Source of the DNA: Verrucomicrobiota bacterium
Lineage (GTDB): Bacteria > Auribacterota > JABMQX01 > JAFGEW01
Direction: 5' to 3'
Assembly: GCA_016931415.1 (NCBI GenBank)
Contig: JAFGEW010000060.1
Span: forward strand, 1 to 57,784
Length of the DNA: 57,784 nucleotides
The notes under the pieces are model-generated. The model made no database searches and had not been told where the DNA came from. It saw only the letters and a list, made by a program, of their open reading frames with translations. How positions within the stretch are numbered: the stretch's first letter is position 1; every line of letters starts with the position of its first letter. Made by a program: the position numbers and the translations under genes. Shown here one piece after another: positions 24,686 through 39,691 of this stretch.

Positions 24686-25996
24686 CTAGAGGATCCGACT
24701 GAGCAGGGGGATGGCGTAGACATCCTCAGGCCGGTCGACGGCCTCGCGGAGCTTCTGGACGGCGCGGCGCGCGTTAACCTCGCGCACCTCACCCGTAATT
24801 GCCACCGTGAAGTCGCCCTCGGCGCTGAGGCGGAAGACCTCCTCGGCATCGGCGTAGCAGGTCCGCAACGTATCCACGAGCAGCTTCTTGCGCCCGCGCT
24901 TGACGCCGGGCACGCGCAGGCTGTAGCGCCGCTCGACGGTGGACGTGTCGGCGAGCGGCAATGCTTTCTTGAGGTCTGGCCACCCCGGGTTGACGATCTC
25001 GGCGCCTATCGTGATGGTCCTGGCGATCTCGATCACGTCGGCCGCCACCGCGCTTGCCGTCGGGATCATACCTGCGCCCTTGCCGAACAGCCGCACCTCG
25101 CCGACGAAGTCGCCATGGAGTTCGATGCCATTGAATGCCCCATCGACCTGTCCAAGATGGTAGGCCTTCGGCACGAGCATTGGACCGACGCGCACGTCGT
25201 ACGCGACGTCCGCCCCGCGAGTGCCTTCCTCACACGCGTGCGCCATGGCGATGAGCTTGACGTGATGGCCCATGCGCTCGGCGGCCGCGATGTCGGCCGG
25301 CGTGATCCGCGTAATGCCCTCGATGGGGATCTTTGTGAAGTCACACCACTGACCGAACGCGAACGTCGAGAGCAAGGAGATCTTGTGCGCTGCGTCCGTC
25401 CCGTTCAAATCGAGCGACGGATCGAGCTCGGCGTAGCCTTCCTTCTGCGCCACCTTGACCGCATGCTCGAGGTCCATCCCCTCGCTCGCCATGCGAGTGA
25501 GCACGAAGTTCGACGTCCCGTTGAGGATGCCTGTGATCGAGTCGATCCGGTTTGCCCGTAATGACTCGGTGAGCACCTCCACCACGGGCATTCCGCCGCC
25601 GACGGCCGCCTCGAACCGCACGAGCACGGCCGCCCTTCGGGCGGCTTCGAGAATCTCGCGGCCATGCGTGGCGAGCAGCGCCTTGTTCGCCGTCACGATG
25701 TGCTTGCCCGCGGCGATCGCTTCGAGCACGATGTCCTTGGCCACCGTCGTGCCGCCGACCGTCTCGACGACGATTCGGATACGCGGATCCGAGATCACGC
25801 TTGCCGAGCTCGTCGTCATCAACTTGCGGTCGACCCGGAACGCGCGCGGGCGATCGAGGTCGATGTCGCACACCGCGCGCAGGCCAAGCTCGATGCCGTA
25901 GCGCTCGCGGTAGAGCTTCGACTTCTCGATCAGGTTCTTGGCCGTGCCCGAACCGACCGTGCCGAATCCGATAATACCGACGCCGACCTGCGCCAC
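24686..25996 (-). CDS. hom: Homoserine dehydrogenase with C-terminal ACT domain
   Basis: 436 residues. NAD(P)-binding motif GIIGFGTVGSGTAKN at the start, catalytic region GILNGTSNFVLTRM and EGYAELDPSLDLNGTDAAHK, then a C-terminal ACT domain (about 355-436, YSLRVPGVKRGRKKL...) that in this family senses threonine. It reduces aspartate semialdehyde to homoserine on the way to Thr and Met. The GTG start at 25996 is preferred because GGAGG stands 7 nt before it and the NAD motif begins at once; the open frame continues upstream to 26065 without family similarity. It is 164 bp downstream of eutN. Confidence 0.95.
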   Translation of the reverse strand: MAQVGVGIIGFGTVGSGTAKNLIEKSKLYRERYGIELGLRAVCDIDLDRPRAFRVDRKLMTTSSASVISDPRIRIVVETVGGTTVAKDIVLEAIAAGKHIVTANKALLATHGREILEAARRAAVLVRFEAAVGGGMPVVEVLTESLRANRIDSITGILNGTSNFVLTRMASEGMDLEHAVKVAQKEGYAELDPSLDLNGTDAAHKISLLSTFAFGQWCDFTKIPIEGITRITPADIAAAERMGHHVKLIAMAHACEEGTRGADVAYDVRVGPMLVPKAYHLGQVDGAFNGIELHGDFVGEVRLFGKGAGMIPTASAVAADVIEIARTITIGAEIVNPGWPDLKKALPLADTSTVERRYSLRVPGVKRGRKKLLVDTLRTCYADAEEVFRLSAEGDFTVAITGEVREVNARRAVQKLREAVDRPEDVYAIPLLSRIL

Positions 25997-26160
25997 GAGC
26001 CGCCTCCGGTTGCGTAAAACGATCGAGTACACCCTCAAGCAAGAACTGGGCCGGGAGAGTCGCACGTCGAGTCGCGCCTGTCAAGCACACCGGGAAGGCA
26101 GGAGGAGGGGGGAACAGCGGCGCCTCGGTCTGATCCGGGCAATCCGCACAGATCAGGAGT

Positions 26161-26433
26161 TCATCCCCGAACATCAACCTCATCGACGACGCCGACGATG
26201 ACCGACCGCACGGGTGCCTGAGCGTCGCCCACCATCTGGCGTCCCGAGTTGCCCTCGTTAACCACGAGTACGCGGTCGCCCATGCCCGCGTTGACGAAGT
26301 CGAGCGCGATGTACGAGTTGCCGTGCTCGCGTCCGTCGAGGCCGAGCGGCTGCACCACGAGCAGCTTGTGCCCGTCATAGACCGGGTGGCGCACTGTTGC
26401 CACCACGTTGCCGATCACACGTGCGATGTGCAT
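26161..26433 (-). CDS. EutN/CcmL-family bacterial microcompartment vertex protein
   Basis: 90 residues, typical length. The family start MHIARVIGNVVATVRHP and core LDGREHGNSYIALDFVNAGMGDRVLVVNEG are unmistakable. These proteins form pentamers that cap the vertices of microcompartment shells. No shell hexamer (BMC-H/T) or enzyme cargo gene is in the window. It starts 3 nt after the glycosyltransferase stop and thus appears to be the last gene of a pgsA-flavin reductase-glycosyltransferase run. It could belong to a split BMC locus or serve another role. Confidence 0.93.
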   Translation of the reverse strand: MHIARVIGNVVATVRHPVYDGHKLLVVQPLGLDGREHGNSYIALDFVNAGMGDRVLVVNEGNSGRQMVGDAQAPVRSVIVGVVDEVDVRG

Positions 26434-26436
26434 GAC

Positions 26437-28059
26437 TCAAGTCCCATTTGGACACGTCACGGACGTATCACCGTCAGGCGGCATGTCGAGGCGCTGTCGC
26501 ATGTCAAAGATGATGTAGTCCCTTGTTTCTTGATAGACCGCGTAGCGCCTCTCCAACAAGGCGGCCAGATCAGGCTGTTCACGGTACTCCCCGAGCCATC
26601 CGATGATGAAGAACTCGGGGGCCTCTTCTCTGATCATCTTGTCGAGGCGCTCCTCTGCGCTCATATCCGGGAGCCCGATATCCCGTAGCACCTTCAGATC
26701 GCCTCGAGTATACCAACGGCTCCCCGCGAGCTTCGCGTGGTAGGTGAGGATCGCACCGTAATAGTAGTCGAGACTGATGGTCTTCATACTATGGTTCACG
26801 ACCGTGCCGATTTCCTTGCGGACCGCGATGTCGTGTTGATACTTCGGATTCGCCCGTTCCCACACGAGCGGTTCAACAGAGACCAAGATCATTACGACCA
26901 GCGCACTCCACGTGACCAAGCGCTGCCATCTCGGATTCGGTAAGTGGCGAAGCCAGTCCAAGAGCAACTTGATGAGCGGGACAAGACTGAGAGCAGAGAT
27001 GGGGATCAGCATGAGCTGATACCGATCGTGCGTGTAGATCTTCCACGAGAAGGTCAGGCCAAGGACGATGTAGCCGATCCAAAGCCCGAGCAGCATCGCC
27101 CGGAAACGCTTGACCGGACACAGAAAGGCGCCCAACAATCCCCCAGCAACGAGCGGGAACCCAATCCGCGACCCGATCTTCTCAAGCCAGCCGTGCCAGA
27201 AAAGGGGATACAGGTACAACGAAGGTCGGAAATTCCTCTCGGCTACCCAGTGAATATACGTCTCCGAAAACATCCGGTGGGTGACATAGAACAGCGTTGG
27301 GATCGCAACGACGACGAAGAAGAACACGTAGCGCCATCTCACGCATCGCGCGACCGACTTCTCATGCTGGAGCATCAACGCGATGAAGGCCACAAAAACC
27401 GGACACGCATTGACCCCCGGTTTGAGGAACACGGCCACAGCAGAGACTGCTGCCGCGCCGACCAGCCAGCCCCATGATTGCCTCTCAGAATACGAGTAGA
27501 TGGTCCAGAGACTGACCAGCAGGGAGAAGATGAGCAATGGACCGGGAATCAGGCCTCGACTTCCTTGAATCCCGTATGGGGCAAAAAGGTACAGGACTGT
27601 TGAGAGAAACGCCGCATCCCGAGACGCAACTCGACGGACCAGGCTATGGAGGAACGCTCCGCCGATGACCCAGAAAAGGATCGACCAGGAACGCGCGAGC
27701 CAGAGGTGCTCGCCGCCGACGATGGCATAGACGCACGCAGAAAGGTGCTCAATAATCGGCGGTTCGAGAAACGGTGTGGCCACCAGATTCGCCGCGGCAA
27801 CTTCGCGTTCCCACTTCGGGATGGACTCGTTATCCCGGTAGTAGAACGCGCGGGCAATGAGGGCGGACCGGTACTGGCGCTGACAGTCGATCTCGATTCG
27901 CTCGGCGTGGTAGTCCATCGGCGGGCTGGAAATCCGGTCGAACCGAACGGCAAGCGCCGCGACAACAAATGCGCCGATCACGAGAAACCGGGCCCATCGT
28001 CTGCGCGGGAGAAGAGACGATCGTGCAGACTCATCCGGCGTGTTTGATGCCACCATCAT
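26437..28059 (-). CDS. GT39/ArnT-like polytopic membrane glycosyltransferase
   Basis: 540 residues with about ten membrane segments. The first periplasmic loop has SPPMDYHAERIEID followed by QYRSALIARAFYYRDN, where the dolichol-phosphate mannosyltransferase superfamily carries its acidic catalytic residues. A C-terminal soluble part of about 150 residues follows the last helix (WERANPKYQHDIAVRKEIG onward). It probably transfers a sugar from a polyprenyl phosphate donor to an exported acceptor; specificity unknown. ATG 28059 (next codon also ATG) overlaps the stop of the upstream deleted paralogue, with AAGGAGACG ahead. Confidence 0.9.
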   Translation of the reverse strand: MMVASNTPDESARSSLLPRRRWARFLVIGAFVVAALAVRFDRISSPPMDYHAERIEIDCQRQYRSALIARAFYYRDNESIPKWEREVAAANLVATPFLEPPIIEHLSACVYAIVGGEHLWLARSWSILFWVIGGAFLHSLVRRVASRDAAFLSTVLYLFAPYGIQGSRGLIPGPLLIFSLLVSLWTIYSYSERQSWGWLVGAAAVSAVAVFLKPGVNACPVFVAFIALMLQHEKSVARCVRWRYVFFFVVVAIPTLFYVTHRMFSETYIHWVAERNFRPSLYLYPLFWHGWLEKIGSRIGFPLVAGGLLGAFLCPVKRFRAMLLGLWIGYIVLGLTFSWKIYTHDRYQLMLIPISALSLVPLIKLLLDWLRHLPNPRWQRLVTWSALVVMILVSVEPLVWERANPKYQHDIAVRKEIGTVVNHSMKTISLDYYYGAILTYHAKLAGSRWYTRGDLKVLRDIGLPDMSAEERLDKMIREEAPEFFIIGWLGEYREQPDLAALLERRYAVYQETRDYIIFDMRQRLDMPPDGDTSVTCPNGT

Positions 28060-28847
28060 TCCTCGTCGTCTCCTTTCGGCAGCCTCGTGACGTGGTCTTG
28101 GTCGATGCGCTTCCTGATGTCGTAGATGATGCAATCGGCCGTGTCATGGAGTTTGTGGTATTGTGTCTCAAGAAGCGCGCGAAGGTCTGGCTGGTTCGAG
28201 AAGCCCTTGATGATGAGGATGACAAAACAGTCGGCGCAATGCGCCTGCCTCTTCTCGTCGAGGAGCTTCGCCGTGGAGGGGAAAGGCACTCCCAAACGTC
28301 TGCGGGTTTCGATGTCGTGGCTCGTCGGCCACCACGAGCCGGCTACGCCCCCGCAATAACGCAGGATGTCGCCATACTCCAGGTCCAGGATGATCGTTCT
28401 ATCGCTGTGATTAATCAGCTCCCCGACCTCACGCCGCACATCGGCAGCGTGTTTGTCCGACCTGTTGGTGTTGGTCCAAAGCACCGGCTCTACGGCGTCG
28501 GCAACGGCAACAAGTATTGCACCCCGTGCGGCCACTGGGATCTCCAGCTTACGCGTGCGCTCCAGTCCATCTGCCCCGATGCGATGCCCCTGGTCGGACG
28601 CGTCGTATGCTCGAATCCAGTAGAAGGACTGGGCCAGAACAGCCGAACGGAGTTGGCGTTGCGCGCTGAAATCCAGGGGTGGTCCTGCTGTCCTGTAAGC
28701 TTGGACGGCGAGGGTCGCCATGCAGAAGACAAGGAGGAGTACAAGACGCCAGAGCTGGCTGGAAGGCAGGAGAACGGTTGGGCCATTGTTCAGAGCACCC
28801 TCTGGTTTTGAGACGTGCAACGCGACACCTCTGAGCCGGTCAACCAT
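28056..28847 (-). CDS. Internally deleted paralogue of the adjacent glycosyltransferase
   Basis: 263 residues. The N-terminal part (one membrane helix, then GPPLDFSAQRQLRSAVLAQSFYW) matches SPPMDYHAERIE...QYRSALIARAFYY of the next gene. The C-terminal part (AVEPVLWTNTNRSDKH, VRREVGELINHSDRTIILD, YGDILRY) matches SVEPLVWERANPKYQH, VRKEIGTVVNHSMKTISLD and YGAILTY. The roughly 270 residues between, which hold the polytopic membrane core, are missing, in frame. The result is a plausible one- or two-helix protein with a soluble C-terminal domain. ATG 28847 overlaps the flavin reductase stop by 8 nt and its own stop overlaps the next start, so it is still translated in register. The start lacks a strong ribosome site, consistent with coupling. 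Confidence 0.8.
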   Translation of the reverse strand: MVDRLRGVALHVSKPEGALNNGPTVLLPSSQLWRLVLLLVFCMATLAVQAYRTAGPPLDFSAQRQLRSAVLAQSFYWIRAYDASDQGHRIGADGLERTRKLEIPVAARGAILVAVADAVEPVLWTNTNRSDKHAADVRREVGELINHSDRTIILDLEYGDILRYCGGVAGSWWPTSHDIETRRRLGVPFPSTAKLLDEKRQAHCADCFVILIIKGFSNQPDLRALLETQYHKLHDTADCIIYDIRKRIDQDHVTRLPKGDDEE

Positions 28848-29472
28848 GGTGTGATCTGAAGACACCGCGTGGATGCTTACGTTTGAGGCGCTCGGTGATC
28901 GGCACGAACCAGTCGCCGGCGAGCCGGCCAATCGGGCTGAACTTCGTCACGTCCGGCTTGCCGCGCGTGAGGAGGGCATCGTCGACGTGAATGACGACCA
29001 CCTTGCCGATCGTGAGCACGTTGCCGCCCTTCTGGGTCAGTTTGCTCAGCGGAATCTGGCGCCACAGGCGGCACTCGAGGCTCACGGGCGACGCGGCGAT
29101 CCGCGGCGGATGCACGGCCGACGATTTCACCGTCTTGAGCCTGGTCATTTCGAGCTCGCTCACTTCACTCGTGTGGTGTCCGCTCGCCGCCACCACATCG
29201 TTGAGCAATTCCTCGGTCACCACGTTGACGACGAACTCGTTCGACGTCTCGATGTTGAGCACCGTGCAGATCTTGCCGAGCTCGCGCGTGCCGGCGCTGA
29301 ACGCCACCATCGGCGGGTCTTCGTTGACGACCGTGAAGAAGCTGTGCGGCGTTGCCCGGACAATGCCCTCAGGGCTCACCGTCGTGATGAACGCGATCGG
29401 CCGCGGCACGACAACCGTCTCGAGAATCTCGTACGCCCGTTTCGGTGAGAGGTCTTCTGCCTTGTAGATCAT
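28840..29472 (-). CDS. Flavin reductase-like FMN-binding split-barrel protein
   Basis: 210 residues. The family text VVVPRPIAFITTVSPEGIVRATPHSFF and PPMVAFSAG..., TSNEFVVNVVTEELL is intact, followed by ECRLWRQIPLSK and VVVIHVDDALL. Such proteins bind FMN and reduce it with NAD(P)H, or serve as flavoreductases for unknown partners. ATG 29472 has GGGAGCACGAGG upstream. It sits between pgsA (59-nt gap) and the deleted glycosyltransferase (8-nt overlap), an unusual setting for it. Confidence 0.92.
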   Translation of the reverse strand: MIYKAEDLSPKRAYEILETVVVPRPIAFITTVSPEGIVRATPHSFFTVVNEDPPMVAFSAGTRELGKICTVLNIETSNEFVVNVVTEELLNDVVAASGHHTSEVSELEMTRLKTVKSSAVHPPRIAASPVSLECRLWRQIPLSKLTQKGGNVLTIGKVVVIHVDDALLTRGKPDVTKFSPIGRLAGDWFVPITERLKRKHPRGVFRSHHG

Positions 29473-29531: not shown

Positions 29532-30155
29532 TTATCCATCCTCCCGCTTCTCGCGGATCGCCATGAGCATCGGCCAGTTGCCGAGCACGTACTCGATGCC
29601 GGAGAAGAAAGTCACCAACGTCGCCACGAGCATGAGCCACCACGAGATCGTCTGCACTCTGATCCACGCCGGCTCCCACCCGACGATCTGCGTGAACACC
29701 ACCAGCGCGATGATCAGGTTGACCACCGTGCCCTGGACGATGGCCTTGAGCTTGCCGCTCCAGCGCGCCGCGATCACCACGTTGCTCAGCACCCCGAAGT
29801 TACGCAGCACGGCCACCGTAATGTCGCGGTAGAAAATGATGGCCAGCATCCAGATTTCGGCTAGCCCGCTCGCCAGGAAGCACAGGAACGCCGTGAACCG
29901 GAACATCGTGTCGGCGAACGGATCGAGCAGCTTGCCGATATTGGTTACGATCCGCCACCGCCGCGCCAGCCGCCCGTCGAGCAGGTCGGACGCCTCGGCC
30001 AGCACCACGACAACGAATGCGCCGATCAGCCACCCGTTCGGCGCCGGCCTGGCCGTCCCGCCCGTACGAACGAGCATCCCGCCAGCGTACCAGAACGCGA
30101 CGAAGATCGGGCTCAGCACGATGCGAATCGCCGTAATGGAATTCGGGAGGTTCAT
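29532..30155 (-). CDS. pgsA: CDP-alcohol phosphatidyltransferase, PgsA type
   Basis: 207 residues, about six membrane helices. The family motif D-x2-DG-x2-AR-x8-G-x3-D-x3-D is complete as DLLDGRLARRWRIVTNIG then KLLDPFAD. The N-terminal MNLPNSITAIRIVLSPIF is typical of phosphatidylglycerophosphate synthase, first step of phosphatidylglycerol and cardiolipin synthesis. A phosphatidylinositol-type enzyme is less likely. ATG 30155 has AGAGGA ahead. First gene of the minus-strand run ending with eutN. Confidence 0.88.
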   Translation of the reverse strand: MNLPNSITAIRIVLSPIFVAFWYAGGMLVRTGGTARPAPNGWLIGAFVVVVLAEASDLLDGRLARRWRIVTNIGKLLDPFADTMFRFTAFLCFLASGLAEIWMLAIIFYRDITVAVLRNFGVLSNVVIAARWSGKLKAIVQGTVVNLIIALVVFTQIVGWEPAWIRVQTISWWLMLVATLVTFFSGIEYVLGNWPMLMAIREKREDG

Positions 30156-35510: not shown

Positions 35511-37406
35511 CTATTCTGTCGGGGCCTCGCCGCCAAAACGCTGCGGCGAGATCATGTTCCCGAATCGCGCGCTGGCGTCGAGAAGCCGCTCACGTTGTTC
35601 GGCCAGGATGCGGAGCAACTCGGGCGGAGCATCGGCGACGTGTTCGCGATGAAACTTCTCGACGCGGTCCAGTTTTGCCAGGTTCTCTTCGACGCGGATG
35701 GTGAACTGCCTCTCATAGTCCTCGGGCGTGTACTCCTGGTTGAGGACTTCCCTGAACAGGCGGCGAAGGTCCTCGAAGCACGGAATGCTGCCGGTCGGGG
35801 TGTGAACGCAGCCCACCTCGTCGTGCACGCGCAACTCCATCCACTTGACCCAGACGTGCTTGTCGCGGATGCCGTTGACGAATCGGCCTTCCTTGTCGCG
35901 CAGGAAGTAGTTGACGCCGAACACGAGCGGCGGTCTCCCGAGCCTTCCGCCGAACTCCAGGTTGTTGCGGATGTATTTGCCGAGCGAGATGGCCACGAAG
36001 TCCTGAATGCTCATCAGGTTGATCTCGGGCACGCCCTCCCGGCCGACGGTGGCAAAGGTGGTCTCCGTCTCGAGCGAAGCGCCGTAGGCGATGATCCCGT
36101 GTTGCCATGAGAAGCTCTGCTGGCAGGGGACATAGGCTTTGGCGTCGCGCCCGCCGTACATGATTCCGGCCAGCGGGACCCCCTGGGCGTTGTCCAGTTC
36201 CTGGTCGCAGTTGGCCATTGCCTTGAGCGACAGGGCGTACCGGGCGTTCTTGTGGGCGCACGGAATCTCGACGCCCTTTGCGTCTTTCTTCCCTTTGTGC
36301 CAGCGACCGGAGAAGTTCTCGCCGTCAGCCGGGACGTCGACGCCCATGCCGAGCCAGTACGGCCTTCCGTCCTTGACCAGCACGTTAGAGAAGACCACGT
36401 CGCCGGGTTTCGTCAGCGCGTCCCAGATCGCCGGGTCGTCTTTGGCGTTGACATTCTGAAGAATACCGAAGATGCCCGCTTCGGCGTTGGCCGCCATGCA
36501 GCGGTCACCGACGGCACGGAGGTAGGCGATGTCGTCTCCGAGGATGGTTTCGCCACGGAGCATGGCCGTCGAGGTCTTGCCGCACGCGCTGGGGAACGCG
36601 CCGGCCAGGTACGTCTTGCGTCCGCCGGGCCCGCGCACCCCCAGGAGGAACATGTGCTCAGCCAGCCACCCCTCGCGGTCCGCCTTGCGGATCGCGAGCC
36701 GAAGCGCCAGCTTCTTCAGCCCCACGGTATTCCCCGCGTACTGGGTGTTGACGCTGTACACCGTGTCCGTGGTGTAATCGATGTAGATGCGTTTCTTGTC
36801 CGGCTCGCTGCTGACCATCCGGTCATCGAGCTTCCCGCTCGAGTGCAGCGTGGCGAAGGGCCGGGCGGCGGCCCCGAGCCGCTTGAACAGCTCGTAGCCC
36901 GGGCGATAGAGCAGGCTCACGCTGTGGGAGACGTAGAAGGAGTCGGTGCACTCGACGCAGGGGATGCTGAAGTCCGAATCGGCCGGGGCCAAGGTCATGA
37001 AGCGCACAATCATCGTGCGGCCCTTCATGGCGCCCTCGAGCAGTCCGCGCACCTCCGCAAGGCCCTCCTCGCGTTCGATCTGGTTGACCGCCTTGCTGAG
37101 CGTGTCGGTCTGGGGCACGAGGTACCTGGTGACCTCACGGTCGCGGCCCTGATCCTCCATCCCGTCGAAATGAACCGTGTGGCCCGGTACCGCGAGCGCC
37201 TTCTCCTCGCCAAGCTCGATGGCCATCCGGCGGCCGTACGCGATATCCTCGGCCGAGTCGGTGCTGACCCACACTGCTTCCGGCATGCACAGCTCGACGG
37301 CGTCGGCGATGAATGCGTGAAGGAGTTCGTTCTCAATGGCCGCGAGCCTCCGGAGGCTTTCCGCGTCCACTCTCGATTTCAGTCGTTCCAGATGTGTGTT
37401 CATCAT
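35511..37406 (-). CDS. pckG: GTP-type phosphoenolpyruvate carboxykinase
   Basis: 631 residues, typical of PckG. Oxaloacetate + GTP gives PEP + CO2 + GDP. The GTP-type P-loop FPSACGKTSTAM (about residue 275), TYLAGAF ahead of it, GDDIAYLRA metal loop, and the C-terminal VFGVNYFLRDKEGRFVNG are visible. ATG 37406 (next codon also ATG) has AGGACACAGG upstream. Divergent from the ATP-type gene pckA at 38177. Reaction direction cannot be told from sequence; gluconeogenic use is usual, and carboxylation is known in some anaerobes. Confidence 0.97.
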   Translation of the reverse strand: MMNTHLERLKSRVDAESLRRLAAIENELLHAFIADAVELCMPEAVWVSTDSAEDIAYGRRMAIELGEEKALAVPGHTVHFDGMEDQGRDREVTRYLVPQTDTLSKAVNQIEREEGLAEVRGLLEGAMKGRTMIVRFMTLAPADSDFSIPCVECTDSFYVSHSVSLLYRPGYELFKRLGAAARPFATLHSSGKLDDRMVSSEPDKKRIYIDYTTDTVYSVNTQYAGNTVGLKKLALRLAIRKADREGWLAEHMFLLGVRGPGGRKTYLAGAFPSACGKTSTAMLRGETILGDDIAYLRAVGDRCMAANAEAGIFGILQNVNAKDDPAIWDALTKPGDVVFSNVLVKDGRPYWLGMGVDVPADGENFSGRWHKGKKDAKGVEIPCAHKNARYALSLKAMANCDQELDNAQGVPLAGIMYGGRDAKAYVPCQQSFSWQHGIIAYGASLETETTFATVGREGVPEINLMSIQDFVAISLGKYIRNNLEFGGRLGRPPLVFGVNYFLRDKEGRFVNGIRDKHVWVKWMELRVHDEVGCVHTPTGSIPCFEDLRRLFREVLNQEYTPEDYERQFTIRVEENLAKLDRVEKFHREHVADAPPELLRILAEQRERLLDASARFGNMISPQRFGGEAPTE

Positions 37407-37753
37407 GATGCGACCTGTGTCCTTTCTCTGATCTGGCTGCTCCTGACCTTGGGCCTGTCTTGTCGCCTCATTTGCACAGTGAATCCCGCCATTGTTGCGG
37501 GAACGCCGGATCCTCAGATTCGCCAAGGCGGTCGAGACGACCAACCCCGGAACACTCACGACCCTCCGCCGAGGCAGCTCCGGCCGTCACCTGTAGGGCA
37601 CAGGACGGCCGCACATCGGAGGAGAGAGGGCAGACCTACACCTTGCGTGAAAGACCGTAGCAGGAACACGCCGTGGTCCGTCAAGACAAAACGTCAGAAA
37701 GACTGCGGCGATCCCGCCACCCGGTCACGGACCGTGCGCTGTCGGCCGCGGAC

Positions 37754-37905: not shown

Positions 37906-38176
37906 CCGGCGTCTTGCCTTGGCGCTGAGGCTCACCCAACGGTCGGATGTGCGCCCCGCAACACGCGCCTGTGCAGACGCGTCAGCGTCATGGACGCCGG
38001 CGACGCAACGCCGTCCCGCACTTCGCTGTTTACAGCACGCGCCATCTCGTATATGGTCATCCAGGGTGCGGTCGCACCCGTGTGCGGGCGCCGTGCCGTG
38101 AGTCGTGTGCGCCTCTGAAGAGAAACACACCCCGGATCGTGAGCAGGGGCAGAGCTCCGCCCAGGGAGGGCATGTT

Positions 38177-39691
38177 ATGAAGATCCTCGACTTCGACTTC
38201 ACGCCGAAGAAGCTTATCGCAAACCCGAGCGACGCCGAGTTGCGGGAGATGTGCTTGCGCCAGGATGGCAAGATCACCCAGTTCGGCAACATCGCCGTCA
38301 TCTCGCGTGTGCGCAACCGCAGCGCCAAGTTCACCGAGGTCATCTGGGACAAGCTCGACGCCGACGATCGCGAGACGCTCACCGAGGCGTTCCGTGCGAT
38401 CGAAGAGAAGACCATCATCCAGCTCGATAAGACGATGTGCACGGACAAGCGGTTCAAGAAGGCATGCCGCCTGTACGTCGACGCCAAGTTCGCTCGGCTG
38501 CCGCTCATGTGGGGCAGCACGCTGTTTGCAGGCGAGGACGGCGAGCCCGACTTCATCACCATCGCCCTGCCCGACTGGCGCGAGCGCCGGGTCTATGTTT
38601 TCCCCGACCGCGGCATCACCATCGTGCTCGGCAGCGACTACAAGGGCGAGATCAAGAAAAGCATGCTGCGCCAGATCATGTATACGGTCAAACAGCAGAA
38701 CTGCCTTGGCCTGCACGCCGGGAGCAAGATCCTGCGCATTAGGAAGGGCGGCGACGGCGCCGATGCACGCCGTCTCCACGACGTCGGCTTTCTTTTCTTC
38801 GGCCTGAGCGGCACGGGCAAAACCTCGCTCTCGTGCCATCACCACTGGCTGCGCTGGCCCGAGGGCGTGGTGATCCGCCAGGACGACGTGGTTATTCTCG
38901 AGCCGACTGGCCGCGCCGCCGGCACCGAGGCGTGTTACTACATCAAGACCGAGGGGCTGCGACCCGACGACCAGCCGCTGCTGTACGCGGCCGCCATTTC
39001 GCCGCGCGCCATCCTCGAGAACGTCCAGGTTTCCGGCGAGAACAACGTTGTCAACTTCGACGACGCGTCGCTCACCTCGAACGGCCGCGCCATGGTCAAC
39101 CGGCACGACATCGCGTTCACCGACGGGTCTGTTGACCTCGACGCCGTGCATAACCTGGTCTTTATCACGCGCCACTTCCACATCGTGCCGCCCGTGATGA
39201 AGCTCTCGCCTGAGTGGGGCGCCGCCGCCTTCATGCTTGGCGAGTCAGTCGAGACCTCCGCGGGCGATCCGACCCAAGCCGGCAAGTCCAAGCGCGTCGT
39301 TGGCACCAACCCGTTCATCGTCGGCAGCGAGGCCGACGAGGGCAACATCTTCCTCGACATCCTCCGGAAGAATCCCGGCATGCAGTGCTACCTGCTCAAC
39401 ACCGGCTGGGTCGGCGGCGAGCACCGCGGCGTCAAGATCAGCGTCAAGGACAGCGCCCGCATCATCGAGATGATCGCGCGCGGCACGATCACCTGGAAAC
39501 CCGACGAGTTCTGGGGCTTCGAAGTCCCCGAAGAAGTCCCCGGCCTCGACATGAGCCGCTTCGACCCGAGGAACTTCTACGCCCAAGACGAGATCGATCG
39601 TGCCAGCCGCGAACTTCGGGATGAACGCCGCCAATGGGTCGCGGGCTTCAAGGACCTCGACCAGAGCGTCGTCAACGTGTTCGCCAAGTAG
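38177..39691 (+). CDS. pckA: ATP-type phosphoenolpyruvate carboxykinase, divergent short form
   Basis: 504 residues, about 30 shorter than typical PckA. The ATP-type P-loop FFGLSGTGKTSLS (about residue 217), an RSAKFTE stretch in place of RSPKDK, LGSDYKGEIKKSML, the metal-His LHAG, and NTGWVGGEH are all present. The usual GDDEHxW metal motif appears as RQDDVVIL, keeping the Asp pair. So activity is likely, but the substrate pocket is atypical. It would convert oxaloacetate + ATP to PEP + CO2 + ADP. ATG 38177 is preferred over an upstream in-frame start because GGGAGGG lies 6 nt ahead and conserved sequence starts there. Confidence 0.9.
   Translation: MKILDFDFTPKKLIANPSDAELREMCLRQDGKITQFGNIAVISRVRNRSAKFTEVIWDKLDADDRETLTEAFRAIEEKTIIQLDKTMCTDKRFKKACRLYVDAKFARLPLMWGSTLFAGEDGEPDFITIALPDWRERRVYVFPDRGITIVLGSDYKGEIKKSMLRQIMYTVKQQNCLGLHAGSKILRIRKGGDGADARRLHDVGFLFFGLSGTGKTSLSCHHHWLRWPEGVVIRQDDVVILEPTGRAAGTEACYYIKTEGLRPDDQPLLYAAAISPRAILENVQVSGENNVVNFDDASLTSNGRAMVNRHDIAFTDGSVDLDAVHNLVFITRHFHIVPPVMKLSPEWGAAAFMLGESVETSAGDPTQAGKSKRVVGTNPFIVGSEADEGNIFLDILRKNPGMQCYLLNTGWVGGEHRGVKISVKDSARIIEMIARGTITWKPDEFWGFEVPEEVPGLDMSRFDPRNFYAQDEIDRASRELRDERRQWVAGFKDLDQSVVNVFAK

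Follow-up and report, generated by a model that had tools for sequence, protein, structure and literature searches.

Among described glycosyltransferases, those of the GT-C fold come closest to the gene pair analysed here. The C-terminal domain of one of them, ArnT, is periplasmic (PMC5377068), and D158 in its second loop contacts the acceptor and forms a salt bridge with K203 (PMC7801869). GT-C subunits also pair, as in Pmt1-Pmt2, and the helices that form the PMT dimer interface are missing from the short protein described below (PMC12705809). On short GT-C paralogues, our literature search found nothing specific. In the window, by which we mean the whole stretch of 57,784 nucleotides that was analysed (contig JAFGEW010000060.1), a gene for an ArnT-like protein is overlapped at its start by a much shorter paralogue. 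This short-long locus is a single-genome oddity inside a known enzyme superfamily.

Gene arrangement and the missing core

On the minus strand, genes for a CDP-alcohol phosphatidyltransferase, a flavin reductase, the short protein, the long protein, a microcompartment vertex protein and a homoserine dehydrogenase follow one another (Table 1), in what looks, from the reading frames, like one operon with overlapping translation. The stop of the flavin-reductase gene and the start of the short ORF overlap by 8 bases (28840-28847), the short ORF ends and the long ORF begins within the same ATGA, and just 3 bases separate the long gene from the vertex gene. A sequence-only reading had placed the short ORF in this frame, overlapping genes on both sides, and its coordinates, the frame and both overlaps are real. 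Near its 3' end, the short ORF contains an AAAGGAG about 10 bases ahead of the ATG of the long gene. Only one promoter-like site, a consensus match only, was seen on the minus strand between 26000 and 30700, ahead of the first gene.

Table 1. Features of the short-long locus and its neighbours in the window.
Feature	Position	Strand	Basis
CDP-alcohol phosphatidyltransferase-family gene	29532..30155	-	Pfam PF01066 E 1.8e-30; first gene of probable operon
Flavin-reductase-like gene	28840..29472	-	Pfam PF01613 E 1.8e-17
Short paralogue, 263 aa	28056..28847	-	BLASTP, two-piece profile match, alignment, tree
Long paralogue, 540 aa, GT-C / PMT_2 (ArnT-like)	26437..28059	-	Pfam PF13231 E 4.1e-11, fold matches, conservation
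EutN/CcmL-type microcompartment vertex protein gene	26161..26433	-	Pfam PF03319 E 1.5e-26
Homoserine dehydrogenase gene	24686..26065	-	Next after vertex gene
ATGA overlap of short ORF stop and long ORF start	28056..28059	-	Sequence
SD-like AAAGGAG region for long gene	28067..28076, approximate	-	Sequence; function inferred
Deletion joint in short ORF, ~residues 103-110	28523..28541, approximate	-	Alignment and profile match; exact point uncertain by several codons
Promoter-like site ahead of CDP-alcohol phosphatidyltransferase-family gene	30215-30187	-	Consensus match only

Two features of the surroundings may be recorded in their own right. The EutN/CcmL-type vertex gene directly after the long gene stands alone, no second shell gene having been recognised among the scanned proteins of the window, and two more copies of this type are present in the genome, on contigs C82 and C109. 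Genes for a GTP-type (35511-37559, minus strand) and an ATP-type (38105-39691, plus strand) phosphoenolpyruvate carboxykinase lie close by each other in the window.

The short and long proteins are paralogues. BLASTP aligns their C-termini with 38% identity over 152 aa (E 4e-31) and their N-termini, comprising the helix and first loop, with 30% identity over 109 aa (E 6e-10), and the two matches are collinear. The sequence-only reading had proposed an internally deleted paralogue in translational overlap with its neighbour, lacking about 270 residues; the pairwise alignment, significant at both ends, bears this out. Against a profile of full-length family members, the short ORF covers positions 15-95 and 377-513 and has four residues in the middle, leaving some 280 contiguous positions absent as one block; a multiple alignment with 43 relatives (44 sequences, L-INS-i) has the same single gap. 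Nearly all of the long protein's PMT_2 match (residues 99-257) lies inside this block, and therefore a Pfam scan of the short protein gave no match. Lacking both the PMT_2 region and the transmembrane core, the short protein is filed here, on sequence grounds, as a derived fragment and not as a PMT_2 / ArnT-like GT-C member. The claim that it retains both ends of its neighbour held for helix 1, the first loop and the C-terminal domain, all of which match, but the catalytic-loop text is worn: His has become Ser, two near-invariant Arg have become Gln and a near-invariant Pro has become Ile. The in-frame codon score of the short ORF is above that of all five other frames.

The genome is a draft of 134 contigs, and an assembler might have collapsed a full-length upstream paralogue into the short ORF; there is a single assembly, and the locus was seen in no second genome. 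We consider such an artefact very improbable, however, because the junction is in frame between collinear parts, 38% protein identity is too low for collapse, and the rest of the genome yielded no core fragment of a further copy. The genome does hold a third family copy (contig C67, L009:6833-8389), which is full length and 34% identical to the long protein.

Structure models of both proteins were built from just 4-5 aligned sequences. The model of the long protein is helical (pLDDT 65), and its PDB matches are STT3, ArnT, PglB and AftA with a Foldseek probability of 1.00, so that its predicted fold is that of a GT-C enzyme. For the short protein, only the C-terminal alpha/beta domain is modelled with confidence; the best PDB match of this domain, the C-terminal globular domain of AglB, is not significant (E 0.05). 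Searching PDB sequences with the family returned nothing.

Origin, age and constraint of the short form

In a tree built from columns shared at the N- and C-termini, the short protein is sister to the long one (SH-aLRT/bootstrap 97.9/100), and the third copy stands nearby; judged by these columns, each gene is the nearest relative of the other. The duplication that produced them was therefore both old and local. The short branch is about twice as long as the long one (1.12 vs 0.51), and 68% of third codon positions differ between the two genes, which is near saturation. We rejected the idea that the short gene was copied locally and recently from the long one, identity in the C-terminal domain (38%) being too low. 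The earlier suggestion of a recent duplicate on its way out likewise survives in one part only: the duplication is not recent, although the deletion may be.

With the third copy as outgroup, unique changes in the N-terminal part number 22 in the short and 8 in the long protein (p 0.016), as against 19 and 16 in the C-terminal domain (p 0.74). With the family majority as outgroup, neither part shows a significant rate excess (p 0.42 and 0.39), so the N-terminal excess is a hint only. Under a three-taxon codon model, omega = 1 is rejected both for the short branch (by 10.2 log units) and for the long one (by 7.0 log units); because synonymous sites are saturated, the omega values themselves are meaningless, and we use only the rejection. 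Most of the short branch may predate the deletion, and selection before and after that event is inseparable with the present data.

Judged by the absence of stop codons alone, strictly neutral drift after the deletion can have reached no more than about 0.12 substitutions per site (P = 0.05). Consequently, either the deletion is young, or the frame has been held open by selection, whether on the protein or on uninterrupted translation into a coupled long gene. The argument that an ORF in frame is not simply decaying thus gains some weak support, in that neutral drift beyond this limit is excluded, but a younger deletion or selection on the open frame alone would look the same. The C-terminal domain of the short form keeps 11 of 14 strongly conserved positions, and codon scores, weak in both genes of the window pair, are near-normal there. 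GC3 of the pair is 0.70-0.72 (0.70 in the short gene), as against 0.81-0.92 in most recognisable genes around, and 0.86 in the third copy, a typical value; the low GC3 and weak codon scores of the pair may reflect foreign origin or relaxed constraint.

We searched for other short forms. None was found in 43 other genomes of the phylum or in 396 Anaerolineae genomes, a sample that includes no close relative of the organism, and the same genomes yielded no short-long pair, the check that the sequence-only reading had itself put forward. The phylum genomes gave distant family matches only. Clear relatives came from Chloroflexota, in Leptolinea and another Chloroflexi genome of a species collection, and the family is present in 30 of the 396 genomes of the class of Leptolinea, the Anaerolineae. 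When the short protein was the query against the same 396 genomes, matches fell only inside open frames of about 500 residues, and so the short form is unique among the genomes searched; at a looser threshold, three weak matches in shorter frames appeared among the family-bearing genomes. The short query found no relatives in a collection of genome contigs. The family members that were read are all full length, apart from one that ends at a contig edge (L050). An empty-site comparison was sought through the flanking genes: the vertex gene has relatives, and the phylum yielded none of the flavin-reductase gene.

We suggest, with a probability of roughly 0.55, that the short ORF is the non-catalytic relic of a duplicate that arose in tandem, and that it is kept open by the youth of its deletion and by translation that serves the start of the long gene. 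On this view, the gene for an ArnT/PMT_2-like (GT-C) membrane protein was duplicated in tandem in this lineage long ago, and a single in-frame deletion later removed about 280 residues from the upstream copy, a stretch that runs from transmembrane helix 2 almost to the last helix. The short product, if made, would be an N-terminal anchor helix followed by the C-terminal soluble domain, and no sugar transfer is expected of it. Two things most likely explain the open frame: the deletion is young in evolutionary terms, and ribosomes passing through the short ORF serve a coupled start of the long gene; no role of the short form as a protein would be needed. This reading is favoured by the two collinear matches with one clean gap, the deleted core, the sister placement with a longer short branch and the lack of short forms in the genomes searched, together with the lost first-loop R, R, P and H, the N-terminal excess of change, the low GC3, the weak codon scores, the ATGA overlap and the SD-like site inside the short ORF. 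Against a relaxed remnant count the rejection of omega = 1, a C-terminal domain evolving no faster than that of the long copy, its retained positions and near-normal codon scores, the 263 codons that stand open and the loss of significance of the region effect with the family majority as outgroup. If the short form is a relaxed duplicate, which we think likelier, the locus is a clear case of an in-frame core deletion whose reading frame persists in a coupled operon, and it warns against equating 'in frame' with 'functional'.

The long protein and possible roles for the short one

The long protein scores 43.8 bits against Pfam PMT_2, for which the cut-off is 26.1, and keeps the acidic residue of the first loop, its PPMDYH lining up with the family's PLDFH. 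Where 39 of 40 Chloroflexota relatives have the second-loop Asp of FQPDP, however, it carries Gly, and Arg replaces the first Tyr of THxYY, which all 40 share. Further changes in FQPDPxM are FQ to LI and M to L, a further invariant site has Cys in place of Phe, and seven inserted residues unique to this protein, ERIEIDC, separate the His from the RQ of the first-loop H-x-x-RQ motif. The third copy has an acidic residue, Glu, at each of the two loop positions. In a weak profile alignment (E 0.014), the second-loop Asp falls on the LDP motif of E. coli ArnT, which makes it a tentative counterpart of D158. To judge from these residues, the long protein, earlier called the full enzyme, is not a textbook one and may be inactive or changed in function. 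Since it too has lost family-invariant residues, relaxation possibly affects the whole pair. The altered conserved residues and first-loop insert of the long protein, and the atypically low GC3 of both genes, are what is new here.

The short form had also been proposed as a regulatory or dimerising mini-partner. In its most explicit version, a maintained accessory subunit would carry an extracytoplasmic C-terminal domain on a membrane anchor, be made in fixed ratio to the long protein through coupled translation, and bind it to help acceptor binding or assembly. The best evidence for this is the even rate of the C-terminal domain, which is as conserved as that of the long copy; a neutral short branch is rejected, the overlap with the long gene is tight, relatives in Chloroflexota are often paired, and Pmt1-Pmt2 offers a precedent for GT-C pairing (PMC12705809). 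Such a subunit is the main rival to the remnant, though we regard it as less likely. It occurs in no other genome searched, it lacks the helices of the PMT dimer interface (PMC12705809), and the partner itself has altered pocket residues. Its topology is also questionable: a second hydrophobic stretch, residues 101-123, is weak (hydropathy 1.6) and holds Arg, Asp and Glu, and if it spans the membrane, the C-terminal domain would lie in the cytoplasm. A more specific proposal, an asymmetric GT-C unit of undescribed kind in which a coupled, core-less paralogue supplies a core-altered partner with a second extracytoplasmic C-terminal domain, is an outside chance. Were the short form a maintained partner, it would mean that a GT-C C-terminal domain can work in trans once separated from its enzyme, which gives a testable idea on acceptor choice by these enzymes.

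The short protein could instead have taken on a role without the long one, for example as a membrane-tethered binding domain in an operon with a flavin reductase and a vertex protein. The surroundings are not a glycan locus, the C-terminal domain is retained, and a long branch fits a change of role. We consider this improbable, however, because no new domain or motif is present, the operon partners are unrelated to each other and nothing hints at a ligand, and the best fold match, though non-significant, is to a GT-C C-terminal domain.

Comparison with known GT-C systems

Several Chloroflexota genomes carry two family members close together, mostly from two different clades (L017:5998-9041; L063, L065-L070, L074). 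In Leptolinea and in one further genome (G314) they stand directly in tandem with a 4-base overlap, and elsewhere they are about 1-2 kb apart; GT2 neighbours occur at the family members whose surroundings were read. In Chloroflexota, this arrangement suggests that the full-length enzymes may act as pairs or one after the other. The window pair resembles those of Anaerolineae, such as that of Leptolinea (L017), in belonging to the same family and in having adjacent genes with a 4-base ORF overlap. In contrast, both members of the Anaerolineae pairs are full length, come from two clades and lie in glycan clusters with GT2 genes, whereas the window pair arose by a separate duplication.

With PMT_2 (PF13231) / ArnT-like GT-C enzymes, the long protein shares its Pfam match and its ArnT and STT3 fold matches, and the short protein shares ancestry at both ends. 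However, the short protein, without the PMT_2 region, cannot have a catalytic pocket, and the long protein differs in the missing second-loop Asp and the first-loop insertion. The Pmt1-Pmt2 and EmbA-EmbB dimers likewise bring two paralogous GT-C subunits together and serve as an analogy for a partner role only: both of their subunits keep the transmembrane core, whereas the short form would be just an anchor and a C-terminal domain.
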